From NCBI RefSeq assembly GCF_002217655.1, contig NZ_NEWK01000002.1:1489164-1553163 (forward strand): a stretch of 64,000 nt of DNA, read 5' to 3'. Position 1 is the first letter of the stretch; the number at the start of each line of letters is the position of its first letter. The position numbers and the translations under genes are program-made. Below, one piece after another: positions 43,487 through 52,445 of the stretch. Origin of the DNA: Geobacillus thermocatenulatus (GTDB lineage: Bacteria; Bacillota; Bacilli; Bacillales; Anoxybacillaceae). Under the pieces are notes generated by a model that ran no database searches, was not told the DNA's origin, and worked only from the letters and a program-made list of their open reading frames with translations.

Positions 43487-43648
43487 GTTTCAATCCCTCA
43501 TAGGTACGATAAACACCAAAAAGCCCACATGATCCACCTGATCATGTGGGGTTTCAATCCCTTATAGGTACGATAAAAACTCAATAAAGATATTGATTTT
43601 TTCTCCATCTCCCTCAATGTTTCAATCCCTCATAGGTACGATAAAAAT
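43487..43648 (-). CRISPR. CRISPR array 2 (three repeats, two spacers)
   Basis: Repeats lie at 43487-43516, 43551-43580 and 43619-43648, each with one difference from the array-1 consensus. Spacers are 43517-43550 (34 bp) and 43581-43618 (38 bp). The leader-distal spacer is a perfect terminator hairpin in the transcribed direction. The array lies downstream of cas3 and its leader. Confidence 0.93.
43523..43550 (-). terminator. terminator-like spacer inside array 2
   Basis: On the minus strand CCCACATGATC (43550-43540) and GATCATGTGGG (43534-43524) form a perfect 11-bp stem with a 5-base loop, followed by CTTTTTGG. This is within a spacer-length segment between two repeats and in the direction of array transcription. 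Confidence 0.7.
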
Positions 43649-43761
43649 CCCAACCATGCGCATCAAATCAAGCTTTTTCCCTTTGGGTTGTTTCTAGAAT
43701 ATCACGTTTCAAAAATTCTGTCAATACAGCCTCAGCCGTGATGGCTGTAGGATTTCGGCAC
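43649..43761 (-). promoter_or_regulatory. leader of array 2 with sigma-A promoter
   Basis: It is almost the same sequence as the array-1 leader. TTGACA (43724-43719) and TATTCT (43701-43696) are 17 bp apart on the minus strand. Confidence 0.85.
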
Positions 43762-43819
43762 AAAAAAACATTGTCGTCGATCCCCCGAGGTTTTTGCGCG
43801 ATTGGAGGTCGACAACAAT
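43761..43819 (-). terminator. terminator of the type I-B cas operon
   Basis: The hairpin with arms ATTGTTGTCGACCTCC and CCCCCGATCGACGACAAT is slightly decayed compared with array 1 and is followed by GTTTTTTTG on the minus strand. It starts about 30 bp after the cas3 stop. Confidence 0.75.
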
Positions 43820-43849: not shown

Positions 43850-46258
43850 CTAATATAAATACGCCTCTCCACCTTCGTCCTTGAAACCAGTCTGCATGTC
43901 GTAAAATTTATCCACTTCATTGGGCGACACCCAAAAGAAATTCCCCTTGACACCTCCACGAGTCACAAACTCCGCTAGCTGGCTGTTCACCAACCGATTA
44001 GCCCTTATTTGAACCATATATTGGCTCATCGCTGTTGTTATACGGCGGAGAACTGCCTCTTTTTCGTAAACAGGCATATTTTCCGCTGTCATAACGCGCT
44101 CATACTCATCAGCTAACTTAGTTGCCTCTTTCGTTAACTCAACAAATACATCAGCAACTCCGTCCGTCTCAATCAATTGAAATTCATTCAGTTTGTCCAA
44201 GTCAAGCCGACAAACAGCCTCATTCCATAGATCACGCGAAGCATCCATTGGAAGATGTTCTGCTAATTTCTGATAGTAGTCAAACAGCAAACTGGGAAAG
44301 AGCGGTTCAGGGATTTCTTCATACATATCCAATAGCTTCTTTGTCCAATTGAGATGATGAGAGCCATATATATATTGTGCATCATCACCAAGCCTCATTA
44401 CGTATACTGGGCAAAGTTCCCCTCTCTCTCCGCTGCGATTTACCCTGCCGGCTGTTTGGATAATCGATCCCAATGGAGCAAGATCGCGATATCCAATATC
44501 AAAGTTCAAATCGACCCCCGCCTCAATCGCTTGGGTTGACACCAAAATCACAGGATTTCCGTTCGGATCATCCAGCCGTCCCCGCACTGCCTCGATCACT
44601 TGATTTCGTTGCCAAGGAACGATATTGGTCGACAAATAAAAAATTTCTACATTCCTCAATATTCCTTCTGAATGAGCCCTTTTCAACAATTGATAAATCT
44701 CTTTACTTCTCCGAATAGTATTCACTACAATCAATGCTGATTGATGCGATTGCCAGGTATCCAGAAAGAGGTTGAAAAACTCTTCACCGTTTCTTTCACG
44801 TCCGATTTGTGAAATGAGCCTAGTGCGAGTTAAGCTAGAAAAATATTCCCTATGACTAGGCAGCAGTTCTACAGGCTTGCGGAACGATTGACCAAGCAGC
44901 CGATCCCCAAGCTCCAACAATTGAGGCTGAGTGGCGGTCATTAGAATGAATCGGGTTCCGTAGTATTCTGCCATTTTTCTCACTACCGCCCCTATGAGCG
45001 GCATGTATTTTTCCGGAAGCGCCTGCACTTCATCTAGAATAATAATACTTCCAGCCAGTTTATGAAATTTCTTAAGCGGACGGTTCCGATTAGTAAAGAT
45101 CGAATGGAACAGTTGGACGAACGTTGTCAAGACAACATCGGCTTCCCATGCCTCCGTTAGTAGCAAGCGTTGGTCTAGCGGCAACTCTTCGCTCTCTCCA
45201 GCGGAAAAGCTGAAATCAGCAAGGCGATGATGGGTCAACACATAAGCATCCTTGCCAAAAACCCCTTCATAATCCCATCGACTCTGCTCAATAATATTGA
45301 TGAAGGGAATTGCGGTGATAATCCGTGGAATGTATCCCTCCAATTCAGCAATCCGTTGCTGTAGGTAAAGGGCGCATTCCAACGACGCAAGCGTTTTTCC
45401 GATCCCGGTAGGAGCGGTGATCGTAAAAAATTTTTCCTTGCGAATTTGCTCATCCCCTAACCCTTTCAAAACAGATAGCATCTGTTGGCGCGCGCTCTCC
45501 CTTTTCTCTGTCATTGGTGAAGACATCTCTCCTCCATGCTTAGCACCGATGTAGTCGGTTACTCGGGCAGCAGGGACTGTCTTCACAACAGAAGGCAAGA
45601 TCCCTCCCGAATCTAGTTTATCGGAATCAATGAGCAGAGAAAAAAAGTAATATAGAGCAAAAAACCAGTAATCTTTCCGCAATCTCCCTTTCATATGCTG
45701 GGGCATGTGCAGGAAATGGCGGGTATCAGAACGCCACTGACATAAATCAACATGTTGCGGCAACTGGAGAAAGTCTCCATCCTCTTGCAAGCCAAGGTCA
45801 GTTAAAACTTCTATCCATTTTTGACTGAGATTGGCATGTTGTTGCTCCAAGATCGACCATATGTCATTCGAAAACAATTCTTTCAAGGTAGGATTCCCGT
45901 GATGAAAACGTACACAAAGATATGCAATGAACGCCCAAACCTGCTTTTCAGGATCGGGAACATGATCCAAACAATTTTTTGCAAGCGCTCGTGCAAAACA
46001 GGCGGAAATGTGAGCATGGCTGCTCAGCAGTGACGTTTTCCCTTCCATGAGATGAGACTGAAAATAGTCCGTGTACTTGCCAATATCATGCAAAAACATA
46101 ATGATTTTCGCTAAAACTCCCACATCCCTATTTTCCAGACTTGGAAACCGTACAGTGGGCGGAATCAATTGTTGTCCATTTTGAGCAACATTATGGAGAT
46201 GTTCAGCCAATAGATGCCTTATTTCACTCACACTGTCGTAGTGAGCATAATACTTCAT
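43850..46258 (-). CDS. cas3: Cas3 nuclease-helicase (type I-B)
   Basis: The start is the ATG at 46256-46258, with GGGAGGGAGG upstream, giving 802 residues; an upstream Met at 46300 has no ribosome site. The N-terminal HD nuclease has IIMFLHDIGKYTDYFQSHL (His57-Asp58) and further metal-binding His in SSHAHISACF and VRFHHGNPT. The helicase has Walker A TAPTGIGKTLASL near 284, motif II IILDEVQAL near 408, motif III LMTATQPQLL, and motif VI IIQTAGRVNRSGERG. Cas3 is recruited to crRNA-bound Cascade and degrades target DNA. It is the last gene of the I-B operon; cas4, cas1 and cas2, which often follow, are absent. Confidence 0.95.
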   Translation of the reverse strand: MKYYAHYDSVSEIRHLLAEHLHNVAQNGQQLIPPTVRFPSLENRDVGVLAKIIMFLHDIGKYTDYFQSHLMEGKTSLLSSHAHISACFARALAKNCLDHVPDPEKQVWAFIAYLCVRFHHGNPTLKELFSNDIWSILEQQHANLSQKWIEVLTDLGLQEDGDFLQLPQHVDLCQWRSDTRHFLHMPQHMKGRLRKDYWFFALYYFFSLLIDSDKLDSGGILPSVVKTVPAARVTDYIGAKHGGEMSSPMTEKRESARQQMLSVLKGLGDEQIRKEKFFTITAPTGIGKTLASLECALYLQQRIAELEGYIPRIITAIPFINIIEQSRWDYEGVFGKDAYVLTHHRLADFSFSAGESEELPLDQRLLLTEAWEADVVLTTFVQLFHSIFTNRNRPLKKFHKLAGSIIILDEVQALPEKYMPLIGAVVRKMAEYYGTRFILMTATQPQLLELGDRLLGQSFRKPVELLPSHREYFSSLTRTRLISQIGRERNGEEFFNLFLDTWQSHQSALIVVNTIRRSKEIYQLLKRAHSEGILRNVEIFYLSTNIVPWQRNQVIEAVRGRLDDPNGNPVILVSTQAIEAGVDLNFDIGYRDLAPLGSIIQTAGRVNRSGERGELCPVYVMRLGDDAQYIYGSHHLNWTKKLLDMYEEIPEPLFPSLLFDYYQKLAEHLPMDASRDLWNEAVCRLDLDKLNEFQLIETDGVADVFVELTKEATKLADEYERVMTAENMPVYEKEAVLRRITTAMSQYMVQIRANRLVNSQLAEFVTRGGVKGNFFWVSPNEVDKFYDMQTGFKDEGGEAYLY

Positions 46259-46348
46259 CCAAAATGCCTCCCTCCCAATCCCCTCAGACGATAATTTCAT
46301 ATTCGATAAGTAAGACCGGAACGCAACAAGCGTATCCAGTCCTTAAAG

Positions 46349-47113
46349 TCACTGCATCCAAACAATATTGCACCCGTTGCTCAAAGCGATATAAGTGTTG
46401 ACGGTCGCATAAACAGGAGAATCGTTCATGTTAATAATCACGCTCGTTTTGCCCCGGAGCGTCAGACGCCGTTCTCTGTCAAATTCTAGAGGCAAGTCCT
46501 CTTTAACCAATCGATAAGCTCCTTCCGCCACAGGCGCCAGGTCAATGCTCTTCACGGAGTGTACAGGCAATACAGATGACACCATCACCGATTTCTCTTC
46601 TCTTCTCTCTTCCCCTTCCCAGACGCCCCCATACTGCAGCCACCCTAAGTTGTAAGCGGTGCCCAGCGCCACAGAGATTCCTAGACTACCGTAGCCTCCC
46701 GATGTAGAAACCGCCATAAGCTCCTCCAATCGTTGCATAATCTTCGGATTGCGATGAGAGATGTACACCCGGTAATCTAGGTATCCGTTGCGGATGTCCT
46801 GAGGCAAGACCAACTCTGTCGCCGTCTGGCTATGATTTTCCTGAGACCCGTTGCAGTCATCCCATTTTTTCACCATTAACAAATTCACTTTCTGAATCAT
46901 TTTCTTGATCGGCGCATGGCTGGACACAGCAATTTGGCATTTGTCCAAAGAAAAGTCTTCGTAATAAGAGTCTCTCTCATATCCTAACAGTCCTGCCAAA
47001 ACGCCAATGATCGTGGTACGTGGTGGGACTGAATAGGTCAGTGCCGAGGAATTAGAATAGTAACGTCGAAAATGAGCCATCTTGCCGCAAAGCTGAAGTT
47101 CCAACACTTGCAC
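46349..47113 (-). CDS. cas5: Cas5 (type I-B)
   Basis: The start is taken as a GTG at 47113, nine bases after GGAGG and overlapping the cas7 stop region; 254 residues. The Cas5 pattern is clear: QLCGKMAHFRRYYSNSSALT followed by YSVPPRTTIIGVLAGLLGYE. The SVPPRTTIIGVLAGLLG segment is the family hallmark. Cas5 caps the crRNA 5' handle in Cascade. It lies 90 bp before cas3. Confidence 0.93.
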   Translation of the reverse strand: MQVLELQLCGKMAHFRRYYSNSSALTYSVPPRTTIIGVLAGLLGYERDSYYEDFSLDKCQIAVSSHAPIKKMIQKVNLLMVKKWDDCNGSQENHSQTATELVLPQDIRNGYLDYRVYISHRNPKIMQRLEELMAVSTSGGYGSLGISVALGTAYNLGWLQYGGVWEGEERREEKSVMVSSVLPVHSVKSIDLAPVAEGAYRLVKEDLPLEFDRERRLTLRGKTSVIINMNDSPVYATVNTYIALSNGCNIVWMQ

Positions 47114-47115
47114 GC

Positions 47116-48180
47116 TCACGAACCTCCAAATACAGTCAATGGCTCCCACAAGTCAATCGGTTCAAAATCCGGCATCTCCGTCAGTGATTGCCGATCCGCG
47201 AACGGATGAATCCAGCCAATTACACGTTCCACATATCCTTTTTGTTTCATCTCTTTTAGAACTGATGCAAGGGCTGCAAAATCAACACGTAGATCAGAAA
47301 GACTGCGGATTGGCCTGCCTTCATCGGAATTGACTCGCAAGAAACGACGCAAGTCGCCTAGATATCCATCGAATGCCGGGGAGTACACGACTTCCAAGTA
47401 GCAAAGCGGGGTTTGCCCTTGCTTGCTGTCGGATTGATTCGCCATCATTCCTTGCACCAACGCTTTGCGGAAAATCTCACGATCCTGTTCGTTCATTCCC
47501 GTTCGTTGGGCGTTAAACTTGTTGATAGTGCCATAATGAGCGACGCAGGCATAGTGTACCTTGTACTTTTTCCCGAAAGTAGAACTGTCATCGTTCATGA
47601 TCGTCGTAATCGTATTGGATTTCACCAACTCAACCGGGTGAAGTGAATATCCCCAAGTAATCTGCACTGGACCCGTATAAGTGCGAGATACATTTTCCAC
47701 CGCCATCGCACTTCCAAACAGACGAATATCGATAAGCGAGCGTTTGATGATTTCAGTAAGAAAGAGATTGTGGAAATCGGTTAATGCTTGTTTTTTCTTC
47801 TTATCCCCCTTCACTTTGTCATACAAGGCAAGGATATCGTCGCTATCCGATTGTACTAGTTCATTCCAAGCCTTAGCGATCAATGGCTGTTCGGCAAGCA
47901 AATTATGAAATCGCTCTGTATCCTGCATCCACTGCTTCCGGATATGCTCAACCATTTGTGAAACCGGCACTTTCCGATCAGCCAACGTGTCCACAAAAAT
48001 GGAAAACCCTTTTTGTTTGAGAAAATCGCGGCAATCCCGTTTGCGTCGTGCATCGGTAACTAGGAGTGTAGATGTCTCATAATCCATGCGCGGCTTATTC
48101 TCTTGATCCGGATCTCCGTTTGGATTGGTCATGACTGCTTCAAAGAGAAACAGAAAATCGCTATTTTGTCGAATGACCAT
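47116..48180 (-). CDS. cas7: Cas7 (Csh2-type) backbone protein
   Basis: The start is the ATG at 48178-48180 (MVIRQNSDFLFLFEAVMTNP) behind AAGGAGAGGAG; 354 residues. NPNGDPDQENKPRMDYETS near the N-terminus and the segment DIRLFGSAMAVENVSRTYTG are typical of Csh2/Cas7 of type I-B. It polymerises along the crRNA. It sits 22 bp after the cas8b stop. Confidence 0.95.
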   Translation of the reverse strand: MVIRQNSDFLFLFEAVMTNPNGDPDQENKPRMDYETSTLLVTDARRKRDCRDFLKQKGFSIFVDTLADRKVPVSQMVEHIRKQWMQDTERFHNLLAEQPLIAKAWNELVQSDSDDILALYDKVKGDKKKKQALTDFHNLFLTEIIKRSLIDIRLFGSAMAVENVSRTYTGPVQITWGYSLHPVELVKSNTITTIMNDDSSTFGKKYKVHYACVAHYGTINKFNAQRTGMNEQDREIFRKALVQGMMANQSDSKQGQTPLCYLEVVYSPAFDGYLGDLRRFLRVNSDEGRPIRSLSDLRVDFAALASVLKEMKQKGYVERVIGWIHPFADRQSLTEMPDFEPIDLWEPLTVFGGS

Positions 48181-48202
48181 CAAATTACAACTCCTCTCCT
48201 TA

Positions 48203-50266
48203 TCATGGTAATTGGGCAATAGCAGAGGCAGGATCAGATTCTGTTGCATTGCCGTCCTGCTTCCTCCCTTTATGGCCAGCTAAAGCACCCACCTGATAAG
48301 CGTATCCAGACATGATATAAAAGACATTGGCATGATCGCTCAATGACCATTCTCTTTCTCTTAATGTCCCGCAATGCCGATGAAACCCTTCAATGAGCGT
48401 TTCACTGTACCAGTCAAACGCATCGTACTGGCGCAACTTGTCCAACACATCATAGTACAAACGATATACTTCCGATGCGGACATCCCTTGAAAATGAATC
48501 TTTTTGAGCACTGGTTTCGTTTTGTGACCTTTTTTATACTGCTCAACCCCCACACGATGAATCATGCAGCCAAGGTAAAATAAAGCTTTTGCTTCTGAAC
48601 TGAATCCTTGGCGATCAAGAAACTGTTCAATCGCCTCCACGGATTCATATAACTGCATGTCCTGCTCCTCCATTCTGAATGGTGGTGTAAAAACAGGCCT
48701 GTCCAATATGGATAACTCCTGCAAAACTCGAATTAAAGCCAAGTACTGCATCACCATGCGCTGGATAAAAAAATCTACCTTGTCTGGATGATACTCGCCC
48801 AACCCCATGTTGCGATAGTTATCAATCTTTTCTTTGGATAATTGCGATATCCCTTTATCCAAGGCTTCAGAGGCATAATCAAACAAGGTTTCCGAACGGA
48901 TGCGGTAGCCGGAGAACAAGGCTTTATAAAGCGATAAAATCCGTCCCACATTCACCTGCTCTCCCTTTTTCGTTTCACGAACTGGCACCATACGGTATAT
49001 GTTGCCAAGCGACATCCCCTGCAGAAATGGCTTTAGTTGTCCACTTACTTGCCTGATCGTCCTCATAATCTGCATAAATCGCAAAGCAGGAACATCTTCG
49101 AACGTTTCCAACACAGTGAAAGAAGTGCCGTCTGTCCGATAAACAATAATGTGAATAGTAAAGTAGGGATGCTGCATCCAATCAACATCAGCCTCAACCA
49201 TTTTCAGCCATTCTTCAGCTTCCGGACACTGAAACGCGAAGTCCAACTGGTCTTTAATACGGCCAATGTTATCATAAGAAAATGCATCCAGCAGTCCTTC
49301 CGGGAGAAAAAAAGCACTCTCTCTAGCAATTGAACCCTTAAACCTCTTCTCAATCAACGCCTCACCGTTCACCAAATGTCGGTAACACTCAAGGCATATG
49401 GCATAAGTGTCATCATAACTGTAACCTGCTGTCTTATACCGGGCCGAATTGATTGTAGTGGTAGTAAATACTTTATTGATTCCGGTTCGGCTAAATTTTG
49501 TCGTATACTCACTCTTCACTGAATACTTCAACTGTTGACACACATAGCACACTCGCTGCTCACCCGATAGCGAATCTTCCTCCCGCTCATCTGGCAACTC
49601 CAAATTGTTGATTTTTCGCACCAATTTCCGATAGTCTTCATACTGTGACAGGACAATACGATCTCCTTGGTCAAATACAGCGGAGATCACTAACACAAAT
49701 CGGTCTTTCTTATTTCCATGCTCCAGCATGGCGCGAACAAAATCCTCATACTTAAACTCTTTGGAGCCAACGCAAATCTTTTGATTCTCCTTCTGCAAAG
49801 TGACGGATTGTCCCTCAAGAGAGCCTGGGAGTTGAAGGCGATCCAAGCGCACCTTTCCGTTCCCTTTTTTATTGCCTGTGACAATCAATTCAGCCGCTTC
49901 CATTTTTGCGATCCATTTCGACAATTGAGAACCTTCCATGTGCTGTTTCCGAAGAGCTAGTTGCAAATCGTTCCATACACTCGTCAAGAGATAGTGTAGT
50001 GATTCCACTTCTCTCACGACATGACTTTGCAAGGTGGCGGCATCATTATTCCCAAAGTACCCATATTCATACAGTATATCTTGAGAATACGGAATAGGGT
50101 CTTCGATCCGAATGAGCCGTCTCTCTAAGTCGAACGTTAAAAAAACGGCATACGCCCTCTCTTCTGATTTGATCTTCGTTTTAAGCGATTTCACCTTCGA
50201 TTCAAGCGGGTCATAATCCGCAGGCACTAACGATCCGAGATGCGCTGTCAACTGCGGCAGATTCAT
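48203..50266 (-). CDS. cas8b: Cas8b (Csh1-type) large subunit
   Basis: The start is the ATG at 50264-50266 (MNLPQLTAHLGSLVPADYDP) behind AGGAGGTG; 687 residues. A zinc-finger-like arrangement lies in the middle: CYVCQQLKYSV near 240 and CLECYRHLVNG near 295. The C-terminal helical part (MVMQYLALIRVLQELSILDR, FYLGCMIHRVGVEQYKKGHK) resembles the small-subunit-like end of Csh1. It recognises the PAM and completes Cascade. The frame overlaps nothing important upstream; cas6 ends 17 bp earlier. Confidence 0.9.
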   Translation of the reverse strand: MNLPQLTAHLGSLVPADYDPLESKVKSLKTKIKSEERAYAVFLTFDLERRLIRIEDPIPYSQDILYEYGYFGNNDAATLQSHVVREVESLHYLLTSVWNDLQLALRKQHMEGSQLSKWIAKMEAAELIVTGNKKGNGKVRLDRLQLPGSLEGQSVTLQKENQKICVGSKEFKYEDFVRAMLEHGNKKDRFVLVISAVFDQGDRIVLSQYEDYRKLVRKINNLELPDEREEDSLSGEQRVCYVCQQLKYSVKSEYTTKFSRTGINKVFTTTTINSARYKTAGYSYDDTYAICLECYRHLVNGEALIEKRFKGSIARESAFFLPEGLLDAFSYDNIGRIKDQLDFAFQCPEAEEWLKMVEADVDWMQHPYFTIHIIVYRTDGTSFTVLETFEDVPALRFMQIMRTIRQVSGQLKPFLQGMSLGNIYRMVPVRETKKGEQVNVGRILSLYKALFSGYRIRSETLFDYASEALDKGISQLSKEKIDNYRNMGLGEYHPDKVDFFIQRMVMQYLALIRVLQELSILDRPVFTPPFRMEEQDMQLYESVEAIEQFLDRQGFSSEAKALFYLGCMIHRVGVEQYKKGHKTKPVLKKIHFQGMSASEVYRLYYDVLDKLRQYDAFDWYSETLIEGFHRHCGTLREREWSLSDHANVFYIMSGYAYQVGALAGHKGRKQDGNATESDPASAIAQLP

Positions 50267-50283
50267 AAACGGACACCTCCTGG

Positions 50284-51018
50284 TCAACGGCGGATCGGGC
50301 GAATGCATCCGAATCCGCATGAATTTTTGCCGCCAAGGCCCGCATCAACAGCAACTTGCAACAGACGAGAATCCCCCTCAAGCACAAATCGTCCGCTGTA
50401 CGCTTCAATAATTGTGTTTTTATAGAGAATGATCTGCTTGTGAAAATCTCCAATTGTCTTAAGAGAGACCGGCGCGAACGACAGATTGGCCCCATATATC
50501 AGTTTTGCTTTCCTCACCAAGTTTTCAGAAATGATCCGTTGAAAATCTTTTTCATCAGGATGAAAGTATTTCGTGTATTTTCGTCCATCCGGCCGCAATA
50601 ACGTGGAATAGGCGACCACTGGCGAAAGTGTCTCTATTTCAATCACAGATTGATCAACTTTAAAAATCTCGGTTTGGATGGATGCAACACGCAAACAATG
50701 GCTTCCGATGCGCATTCCCTCCATAAACAACAGTTGGGTGATTTCCCGTATAAACTGCTCAATGGGCGAAGACAAAACAAGTTGGACCTTATCTGAAAAA
50801 ACCAACATTTTAGAGGCAGAGATATAATCATAGGGTCCTATCAAACGCGAGAATGAGAAGAGAGTAAATCGTCGGTGATCTACAATATACCCTTGATTAT
50901 GGAGAAAATCAGCAAATTCAGGACTAAGGTGGCGGTAAATCGCCGCTTGTACGAGATGGTTGTAATTAACCGGAATCCCCCAGGGAGCGTCGTTTTGAAA
51001 GGTAATTGTAACATACAT
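50284..51018 (-). CDS. cas6: Cas6 crRNA-processing endoribonuclease
   Basis: The start is the ATG at 51016-51018 (MYVTITFQNDAPWGIPVNYN) with GGAGGAA upstream; 244 residues, the normal size. Reading further upstream in frame only translates CRISPR repeats. The C-terminal glycine-rich loop GLGGKNSCGFGCI is the Cas6 hallmark, and a candidate active-site His lies near the N-terminus (NYNHLVQAAIYRHL). Cas6 cuts each repeat to leave an 8-nt ATTGAAAC handle. It is the only Cas6 in the window, so it probably serves both type I-B and type III-B. The decayed repeat of array 3 ends directly against its ribosome site. Confidence 0.94.
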   Translation of the reverse strand: MYVTITFQNDAPWGIPVNYNHLVQAAIYRHLSPEFADFLHNQGYIVDHRRFTLFSFSRLIGPYDYISASKMLVFSDKVQLVLSSPIEQFIREITQLLFMEGMRIGSHCLRVASIQTEIFKVDQSVIEIETLSPVVAYSTLLRPDGRKYTKYFHPDEKDFQRIISENLVRKAKLIYGANLSFAPVSLKTIGDFHKQIILYKNTIIEAYSGRFVLEGDSRLLQVAVDAGLGGKNSCGFGCIRPIRR

Positions 51019-51030
51019 GTCTATTCCTCC

Positions 51031-51190
51031 GTTTTCATCCCTTGTAGGTACGATAAAAACGATGCGCGGATCAAGGTAGGTCTTGTAAATTTCACGTTTC
51101 AATCCCTCATAGGCACGATACAACCGCGCCATCCTTCCGATTTGGGTGATTGCTTCAATGTTTCAATCTCTCATAGGTTACGATACAAAC
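51031..51190 (-). CRISPR. CRISPR array 3, decayed, in the cas6 leader
   Basis: Three repeats are visible: 51160-51190 (31 bp, one inserted base), 51096-51125 and 51031-51060, each with several changes from the consensus, mostly in the AAAAAC end and around GGTACG. The two intervals are 34-35 bp, spacer length. On the minus strand the order is leader, repeats, GGAGG, cas6 ATG. Confidence 0.9.
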
Positions 51191-51302
51191 CCCAAACCAC
51201 GCGCATCAAATCAAGCTTTTCTCTTTAGGCTGTTTCCAAAATATCACATTTAAAAAATTCTGTCAATATGGCTCGGCCGTGTTGGCTGTAGGATTTTGGC
51301 GC
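51191..51302 (-). promoter_or_regulatory. leader of array 3, probable promoter of the I-B operon
   Basis: TTGACA (51266-51261) and TATTTT (51243-51238) are 17 bp apart on the minus strand. The leader is diverged from the other two but alignable along its length. No other promoter is seen between it and cas6. Confidence 0.8.
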
Positions 51303-51360
51303 AAAAGAACATTGTCGTCGATCCCCGGGGATTTTTGCACGATTGGGGGTCGACGACAAT
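51303..51360 (-). terminator. terminator of the Rpn-type nuclease gene
   Basis: This is the same hairpin as before leaders 1 and 2: ATTGTCGTCGACCCCC pairs with GGATCGACGACAAT. The following T run (GTTCTTTTG) is broken. It lies 26 bp after the stop of the nuclease gene. Confidence 0.7.
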
Positions 51361-51386
51361 GTGGGGCTCGACGGCGAAGGGCCGTC

Positions 51387-52313
51387 TCACCCCTTCATCC
51401 TTTCAATCTTCTCCATCGGCAGTCCGGTCAGTTCGTGGATCGTGTCGACATCATACCCTTTCGCCAGCATTCTCTTCACCACGTCGAGCTTCCCTTCCTC
51501 GATCCCTTGTTGGCGCCCTTGTTTAATACCTTGTTTGATCCCTTGTTTGACCCCTTGTTCGATTCCCTTCTCGATTCCCTTTTCCATTCCCCGCTGTTCG
51601 TACGAGACGATGAGCTCCATCACTTGTTTCGCTTCCTTCGTCTCCATTTGGCTCACCTCGTTTCGCAGTTGGATTTCCTCCGCTTCGGACAACCGCAAAT
51701 ACGTTTCAAAAAAACCGAACAACAGCCGCTGTTTCGCCTCATCGAGCTCAAGGCGGACGAGCATGCGCAAAAACTCTTTTTTCACTTCGACCTTTTCTTC
51801 TTCATTATACCCCATTTTGCTTAACAAGGCAGCGGCGACGGGATTGTCATGGCGGATGTACGCGCGCCACGGCAGTTTGCAGAGCTCCACCGTCAAGTAA
51901 CGAAAATCGAGAACCGTCAAAAACGGAAACTGGACGACCAATGAGGAAGGTTCATCGTGGTGTTCATCATAGCTGAAGATGGCGATCGGAACAATACGGC
52001 GGCGGTATTTTTGAAACAAGCGGCTGAAGTAGAGGAACATTCGCTCGGGGAAGGTCCGCTGTGCGTAGCTTTGGTGTTCGACATGAACAATGACGAGCCC
52101 ATCTTCCCCTTTCATCTTCGTTTCCACCAACAAATCGACGCGGTGCTTCTCTCCGGCCGTCACGTCGGTAAACAGTTCTTCTGTGAGGAAAGAAAGGTGG
52201 TGAACGTCGATGTGCTCGTACACGTGGGGAAAGAAAAGAAGCAAAAACTCTTCGAAAAACGTCGACAGCAGCTCTTTGAACAACCGGTCGTGATCGATTC
52301 GCTGTTTGGCCAC
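51387..52313 (-). CDS. Rpn-family PD-(D/E)XK nuclease
   Basis: A GTG at 52313 with AAGGAGGG is the best start, giving 308 residues; the frame is open for 24 more codons without a ribosome site. The N-terminus (DHDRLFKELLSTFFEEFLLL) and the nuclease core (HRVDLLVETKMKGEDGLVIV, then HVEHQSYAQRTFPERMFLYF) match the recombination-promoting nuclease/putative transposase family. The C-terminus has a run of heptad-like GIEKGIEQGVKQGIKQG repeats, common in this family. It lies between the Wadjet operon and array 3, on the same strand. Confidence 0.88.
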   Translation of the reverse strand: MAKQRIDHDRLFKELLSTFFEEFLLLFFPHVYEHIDVHHLSFLTEELFTDVTAGEKHRVDLLVETKMKGEDGLVIVHVEHQSYAQRTFPERMFLYFSRLFQKYRRRIVPIAIFSYDEHHDEPSSLVVQFPFLTVLDFRYLTVELCKLPWRAYIRHDNPVAAALLSKMGYNEEEKVEVKKEFLRMLVRLELDEAKQRLLFGFFETYLRLSEAEEIQLRNEVSQMETKEAKQVMELIVSYEQRGMEKGIEKGIEQGVKQGIKQGIKQGRQQGIEEGKLDVVKRMLAKGYDVDTIHELTGLPMEKIERMKG

Positions 52314-52445
52314 GTTTTCCCTCCTTGCGACATTGAATTCACGATATAATATTCGCTCTTCGCGGCGGAATTCCTTCTCATCCATTTCACGTTTTGGAGA
52401 AGGAGACCCGATCGCTCCGGGCTCCTTCTCTGGCTCGTGGATGGA

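Follow-up and report, generated by a model that had tools for sequence, protein, structure and literature searches.

Why does a short, degenerate CRISPR array sit between a leader promoter and the first gene of a cas operon? The question is raised by the 64,000-nt stretch of the Geobacillus thermocatenulatus genome analysed here (the window), in which decayed repeats separate a CRISPR leader from cas6 of a type I-B operon. The original prediction was that the leader promoter probably drives the whole operon, that its transcript carries substrates for the encoded Cas6 and that Cas6 could thereby limit its own level. We lean, somewhat beyond an even chance, towards a different role: a conserved and apparently still guide-capable mini-array, whose leader promoter would also serve the I-B operon and whose spacers would have been captured from a competing I-B module.

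Results

A decayed mini-array adjoins cas6

Direct reading of minus strand 51360-51031 found a CRISPR leader, three decayed repeats and two spacers, with the cas6 ATG 12 nt beyond, in agreement with the predicted order of promoter, repeats, two spacer-length intervals, GGAGG and ATG. The leader (51191-51360) starts with a 50-nt inverted repeat (51311-51360) that is recognisable in all 12 aligned leaders. It is followed, on the same strand, by repeat 1 (51160-51190; 31 nt, with one inserted A), the 34-nt spacer A (51126-51159), repeat 2 (51096-51125), the 35-nt spacer B (51061-51095) and the terminal repeat 3 (51031-51060). The GGAGG ribosome site and the ATG (51018) lie directly 3' of repeat 3, at 51016-51030; the 12-nt gap reads GGAGGAATAGAC, and the last repeat does adjoin the ribosome site, as had been proposed. 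The genome's 30-nt repeat gave 141 matches at up to three mismatches, against none in a reversed-pattern control, and seven further places in the genome resemble the leader, with 76-87% identity. Since its repeats are copies of this 30-nt repeat and its leader recurs at seven places, the mini-array stands above chance, and by its homologous repeats, spacer-length intervals and leader it belongs to the CRISPR arrays of the genome's shared repeat family. One leader-like match, at C1:758212, had no repeats within its 3,114-nt locus.

The mini-array repeats carry three or four changes each (three each in repeats 1 and 2), and, contrary to the original description, these are not simply confined to the outer ends. 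The 8-nt tags of repeats 1 and 2 are intact, repeat 1 has internal changes as well, and only the last repeat has an altered tag; decay of the terminal repeat is also seen in three other arrays of this genome. Taking non-terminal mini-array repeats together, 18 changes fall in the 22-nt body and one in the 8-nt tag (p = 0.02, for rows related by descent). Plain loss of use, one of the causes originally suggested for the decay, fits less well with the intact tags of repeats 1 and 2 and with the non-random spacer content described below. In repeat 3, the changes are predicted to convert an interrupted stem into nine continuous pairs immediately before the ribosome site. An N-terminal extension of Cas6 through the repeats was considered, as in the window its reading frame runs without a stop from an ATG at 51132, and was rejected: the spacer B frame reads EIYKTYLDPRI here and VRFTRRTLIRA in G. 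proteiniphilus, so that no coding is conserved.

The leader is probably the operon promoter

A scan of 50950-51450 returned a single promoter-like site, located in the leader on the minus strand (51238-51266), with TTGACA at 51266-51261, a 17-nt interval, TATTTT at 51243-51238 and a TG ahead of the -10. Shuffled sequences average 0.8 such sites, so the site is not significant by itself. Its -35 and -10 are, with small differences, recognisable in 12 of 12 aligned leaders; the leader site is the only promoter candidate in G. proteiniphilus, and in G. jurassicus the leader is the only region with candidates. No terminator-like site was found between leader and cas6 in the three operons scanned (the window, G. 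proteiniphilus and G. jurassicus). A separate cas6 promoter 3' of the last repeat, which would have spoken against the prediction, was not found, and the 12-nt gap leaves no room for one. With this and the conserved layout described below, the leader is probably the promoter of the operon; that part of the prediction has gained support, while transcription of the operon from it is what we infer. Any operon transcript started in the leader would hold Cas6-type repeats, as had been suggested.

The operon, a second mini-array and the hotspot

The operon consists of cas6 (50284-51018; TIGR01877), cas8b (48203-50320; TM1802/Csh1 type, with matches below curated cut-offs), cas7 (47116-48249), cas5 (46349-47149) and cas3 (43850-46300), all on the minus strand. 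Just 3' of cas3 lies a leader-array unit (43487-43819) that the original prediction did not include: a second leader copy (43649-43819; 86% identical to the first over 171 nt) and a second mini-array of three repeats (43487-43648) with spacers C (43581-43618) and D (43517-43550), again on the minus strand. The five genes are thus flanked on both sides by leader-array units of the same direction. Because the second leader starts 31 nt after cas3, no cas4, cas1 or cas2 fits between them and the operon is without adaptation genes of its own; the cas1 genes of this genome lie at other places. Spacer D forms a perfect hairpin of 11 bp with a run of T behind it (-18.2 kcal/mol), so that one spacer may act as a transcription terminator. 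Beyond the second array, the window holds a type III-B operon and then a leader with a 17-repeat array.

The operon is bordered on one side by a TIGR02679-family gene, which we take to be jetD of Wadjet, and on the other, in relatives, by a peptidase gene assigned by eye. The contents of this hotspot differ in other Geobacillus; in one genome (G012) the I-B genes are missing, and all that it holds is a leader with an array of four repeats and an Rpn-like gene. In the window, an Rpn-family gene (51387-52385, minus strand) lies between the TIGR02679-family gene and the leader, and Rpn look-alikes, again judged by eye, recur next to leaders at the hotspot in other species. The recurrence of leader-array units at the hotspot in several species suggests that cas modules may be exchanged by recombination between such units.

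Conservation of the layout

At a cut-off of E up to 1e-40, this cas6 is present in four of 41 family genomes: the window genome, G. proteiniphilus, G. jurassicus and G010, where it is split in two. The same position was compared in these relatives, as originally suggested, and a leader with two to three repeats precedes cas6 in all four orthologous operons. Spacer B is common to the window genome and G. proteiniphilus (33/35), and another spacer, J2, to G. jurassicus and G010; in the latter pair the last repeat lies about 120 nt from cas6. Two mini-array repeats of G. jurassicus bear an identical variant, so that the insertion of a spacer there probably came later than the change in the repeat.

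Among 30 cas6 loci listed for the taxonomic order, a scan with the shared-repeat consensus found repeats running into cas6 only in the window's own. A second set of 65 loci combined the four Geobacillus loci and three plasmids with 58 more, the best of those newly reached by two wider searches; 64 were usable, one being dropped for its short upstream sequence. Repeats near cas6 were sought by consensus and pair scans, an exact 14-mer scan being blind even to the window array. Outside the Geobacillus, CRISPR-like repeats oriented toward cas6 were found within about 400 nt of its estimated start at nine of 60 loci (L070, L080, L090, L105, L126 and L129 by the pair scan; L076, L077 and L081 by eye), mostly 120-290 nt from the gene, two of them (L105 and L076) being decayed mini-arrays close to cas6. 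At L105 (genome G1021), two decayed repeats with one spacer stop some 50 nt short of cas6, and a longer array lies 3' of the gene; at L076 (G404), two very decayed repeats adjoin the cas6 ribosome site.

Mini-array spacers match a rival I-B module

Comparison of the hotspot loci of sister species revealed matches between the mini-array spacers and a complete I-B module (cas8b, cas7, cas5, cas3, cas4, cas1, cas2 and cas6) present in genomes G007 and G001, referred to here as the rival module; its arrays use the same repeat as the mini-array. The rival cas1 of G007 is split by an insertion with a transposase-like ORF (L161, 3764-6044, seen by eye). Spacer A matches the rival cas8b from codon 14 (26/34), with TTG as the 5' flank, and spacer B matches the rival cas1 (29/35 in G007, 28/35 in G001), spacer and target encoding the identical amino acids EIYKTYLDPRI. 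Spacer C of the second mini-array matches the rival cas3 (33/38). In the relatives, the G. proteiniphilus variant of B matches the rival cas1 (29/35), its spacer Pdn0 the other strand of the rival cas2 (26/35), and J2 the rival cas3 (28/36), with the amino acids of the target kept exactly. Five of the eight distinct mini-array spacers at the operon in the four species thus match rival cas8b, cas1, cas2 or cas3; the other three (D, J1 and Pdn1) match none of the modules tested. Spacer content, which the original prediction left aside, is the most informative feature of the array.

As a control, we took 151 other spacers, 134 from the window genome and 17 from the long cas3-downstream array of G. 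jurassicus. The highest identity among them was 0.657 to the rival module and 0.694 to nine loci, none of the 151 reaching 0.70; the 17 G. jurassicus spacers gave no rival-module match. A perfect protospacer was found for none of A, B and C, the matches above being the best; either the exact target is unsampled or the spacers have drifted, and their mismatches could abolish cleavage. No convincing protospacer was found for A or B in phages or plasmids, or for B in viral contigs; one phage match for B (23/25 over part of the spacer, E 0.9) was set aside, as it runs through a helicase P-loop. The rival module is absent from the window genome, where the best match to the rival Cas3 is the resident I-B cas3 product (34%) and the Cas1 proteins are 49% and 31% identical to the rival Cas1.

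PAM-like flanks of the targets

In a related Parageobacillus I-B system, the best PAM is reported to be TTA, with CTA, TCA, TTG and TTT weaker (according to the portion of PMC10551041 dealing with them). Five main-array spacers match phages, with 5' flanks TTC, TTA, TTA, CTA and TCA; three of eight phage stretches were dropped, having no alignment to a listed spacer. Of the 13 distinct targets of anti-cas spacers, 10 are preceded by TTA, CTA, TCA, TTG or TTT (p = 8e-9 against a background of 0.091); allowing a 1-nt gap adds one more, the target of a G013 spacer. These 13 flanks leave out two G007 matches to a CRISPR array of G035, the same two being counted against our reading in the comparison below. 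The flank of spacer B is TGA in G001 and G007 and TTA in G032, and that of spacer C is CTG; as TGA and CTG are not listed as working PAMs, three of five operon spacers have one (p = 0.006).

Anti-cas spacers concentrate in short arrays

The survey was extended to 361 spacers from CRISPR loci fetched from 17 genomes (522 with the earlier arrays; one 99-nt merged spacer was dropped), so that outside the window genome it covers arrays at these loci rather than whole genomes. Short arrays were defined as those of up to seven repeats, and a match to a cas module as at least 0.74 identity, a cut-off set after the matches had been seen and only just above the 0.735 that shuffled spacers reach. In Geobacillus, 13 of 44 spacers in short arrays matched cas modules, against 3 of 254 in longer ones. 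The contrast is stronger than these counts, as two of the three long-array matches (both G007) lie inside the G035 CRISPR array and one in a cas gene. It persisted when near-identical spacers were collapsed (10/40 versus 2/245), when the four genomes with the operon were left out (6/34 versus 3/254, p = 1e-4) and in the whole family set (13/59 versus 5/463), where the two further long-array matches are to cas3 (G030) and cas4 (G019) of related modules.

Several of these matches are close: spacers of G012 and G008 match the rival cas8b (35/36 and 33/34), one of G005 the rival cas3 (34/36) and those of G011 and G013 the rival cas7 (28/37). A reciprocal case is a G013 spacer against the window-type cas3 (31/35). 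Separately, the rival carrier G007 has a spacer (L161, 13-repeat array, reverse strand, spacer index 10) that matches a G. jurassicus cas9, identified by eye, at 36/38, with TTA before the target. The rival cas3 is present in two of 14 Geobacillus genomes; nine of the other 12 have an anti-rival spacer, and the two carriers have none among the 82 spacers examined. In G005, G008 and G013, a rival-type cas6 (77-91% identical) lies beside arrays (L160, L163 and L164, respectively), the other seven rival genes are missing from the loci examined, no rival-type cas3 was found in the genomes at E up to 1e-50, and each has a spacer against a missing rival gene.

Discussion

From the array, its conservation, the spacer matches, the PAM-like flank of spacer A and the absence of the rival, all of which are read at the sequence level, we infer co-transcription, processing and exclusion of the rival. 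Spacers A and B would have been taken up from the cas8b and cas1 genes of a competing I-B module of the type found in sister species. Transcription from the leader would then give one RNA with both guides and effector messages, from which Cas6 would release guides A and B, and these would aim the resident Cascade-Cas3 at an incoming rival module. Processing may be poor, given the three changes in each of repeats 1 and 2. Since the rival arrays share the repeat, the guides could act through either machinery; they might instead be loaded into the rival's own, so that the rival attacks itself, as reported for the I-F orphan arrays of Escherichia coli. A bolder and more doubtful extension is that the locus is a self-contained exclusion cassette, in which one promoter and one RNA would provide an adaptation-less interference complex together with guides against a rival for the same hotspot, as part of a genus-wide conflict of cas modules. 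With guides and effector travelling together, such a cassette would exclude rivals wherever it moved.

If the main reading of the array holds, CRISPR-Cas modules would seem to compete with each other by sequence, and short arrays beside cas genes might serve as weapons in this conflict and not be decayed leftovers. The reading would also offer a testable reason for missing cas modules in some genomes, and for the retention of only a rival-type cas6 at the loci examined in G005, G008 and G013. The locus also appears to be a natural case in which a cas operon has taken a CRISPR leader as its promoter.

The mini-array might instead be a fossil record: an old leader-array at the edge of a defence hotspot, which lies upstream of the I-B genes by chance, has stopped growing, has drifting repeats and keeps spacers only from past contacts with the rival module. 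The hotspot of G012, with its leader and 4-repeat array but no I-B genes, speaks for this, terminal-repeat decay is usual, as in this genome, and the three to four changes per repeat agree with it. The imperfect matches and the poor PAMs of B and C make it a serious alternative, although we consider it less likely than not. The concentration of changes outside the tags of non-terminal repeats speaks against it, with the reservation on descent given above, as do the exact retention of target amino acids by B and J2 and the spacer that was probably added in G. jurassicus after its repeats had diverged. Autoregulation, in which Cas6 would bind or cut the repeats of its own 5' UTR and so limit the levels of Cas6 and the operon, we regard as unlikely. 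It has in its favour that the 5' UTR, some 213 nt long if transcription starts about 7 nt past the -10, holds three repeats of which the last adjoins the ribosome site, and the predicted fold of repeat 3, at -7.1 kcal/mol against -3.3 for the canonical repeat (-5.1 in G. proteiniphilus). Cas6 cleavage, however, leaves an 8-nt 5' handle and a 22-nt 3' handle (as given in the relevant part of PMC8501985); were repeat 3 cut 8 nt short of its end, neither the ribosome site nor the ATG would be touched, so that cleavage need not lower Cas6. The 5' UTR and first codons also fold no better than shuffles (z -0.78), and in G. jurassicus and G010, with the last repeat so far from cas6, its hairpin is not stronger (-2.6).

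The least probable explanation, by a wide distance, is autorepression of the CreR type, in which Cascade, led to the cas promoter by the pairing of a mini-array guide, would repress the operon that encodes it. Its anatomy, degenerate repeats beside a cas operon, fits, and the seed test applied here can detect such pairing: at L076, the first 18 positions of the spacer-like stretch between the repeats include 15 non-sixth ones, and all 15 pair with the promoter upstream (14 identical and one G:T wobble), which 0 of 100 shuffles reached, so that this locus is a strong CreR candidate on sequence and served as a positive control. In the window, the best seed runs in the leader are 5 for A and 4 for B, within the 2-8 spanned by 136 other spacers of the genome. 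Allowing wobble lengthens them to 8 and 7, where the run of 8 matches the repeat itself, and 16 of the 136 controls reach at least 8. No exact 10-nt seed of A or B occurs elsewhere in the 64-kb window, and the test was negative for the spacers of the three relatives. Pairing of the seed (positions 1-5 and 7-11) with the cas promoter was therefore not found for the window array in seed tests with controls, and this candidate was rejected.

No earlier description of anti-cas guides within a cas operon's 5' UTR was found in the literature searched, which did not extend to the Shmakov 2023 survey of regulatory elements derived from CRISPR or to the original papers on CreR and by Almendros. The mini-array shares with CreR regulators a crRNA-like guide beside a cas operon; as far as the available text of PMC12737573 goes, these are defined by pairing with the cas promoter, which was not found for the window array. 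Like the two-repeat creA antitoxin genes, as portrayed in sections of PMC8501985, which also derive from mini-arrays, it has repeats that are degenerate but retain what processing requires; unlike them, it has no seed match to the operon promoter. In archaea, cas genes of other systems are described as frequent spacer targets, which was read as lowering the acquisition of further systems; the accessible part of PMC3285040 contains neither an operon-embedded array nor a comparison of short and long arrays. A close likeness is to the E. coli orphan arrays (Almendros 2016), which carry anti-cas spacers. According to the extracts of PMC8616872 and PMC5972030 that describe them, they too are short, with few spacers, most of which match cas genes of a system that the genome itself lacks; in the mini-array, both spacers (A and B) match cas genes, and the targeted module is likewise absent. 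The E. coli arrays are, however, orphan and match their own I-F subtype, whereas the mini-array, with cas6-8b-7-5-3 directly 3', lies in the 5' UTR of a resident operon and matches a different I-B module. As far as those extracts go, it also differs from them in that several Geobacillus species carry different anti-cas spacers and in that the window genome and G. proteiniphilus have a second such mini-array after cas3. Anti-cas spacers as such are already known, and their location in the 5' UTR of a cas operon is a variant.
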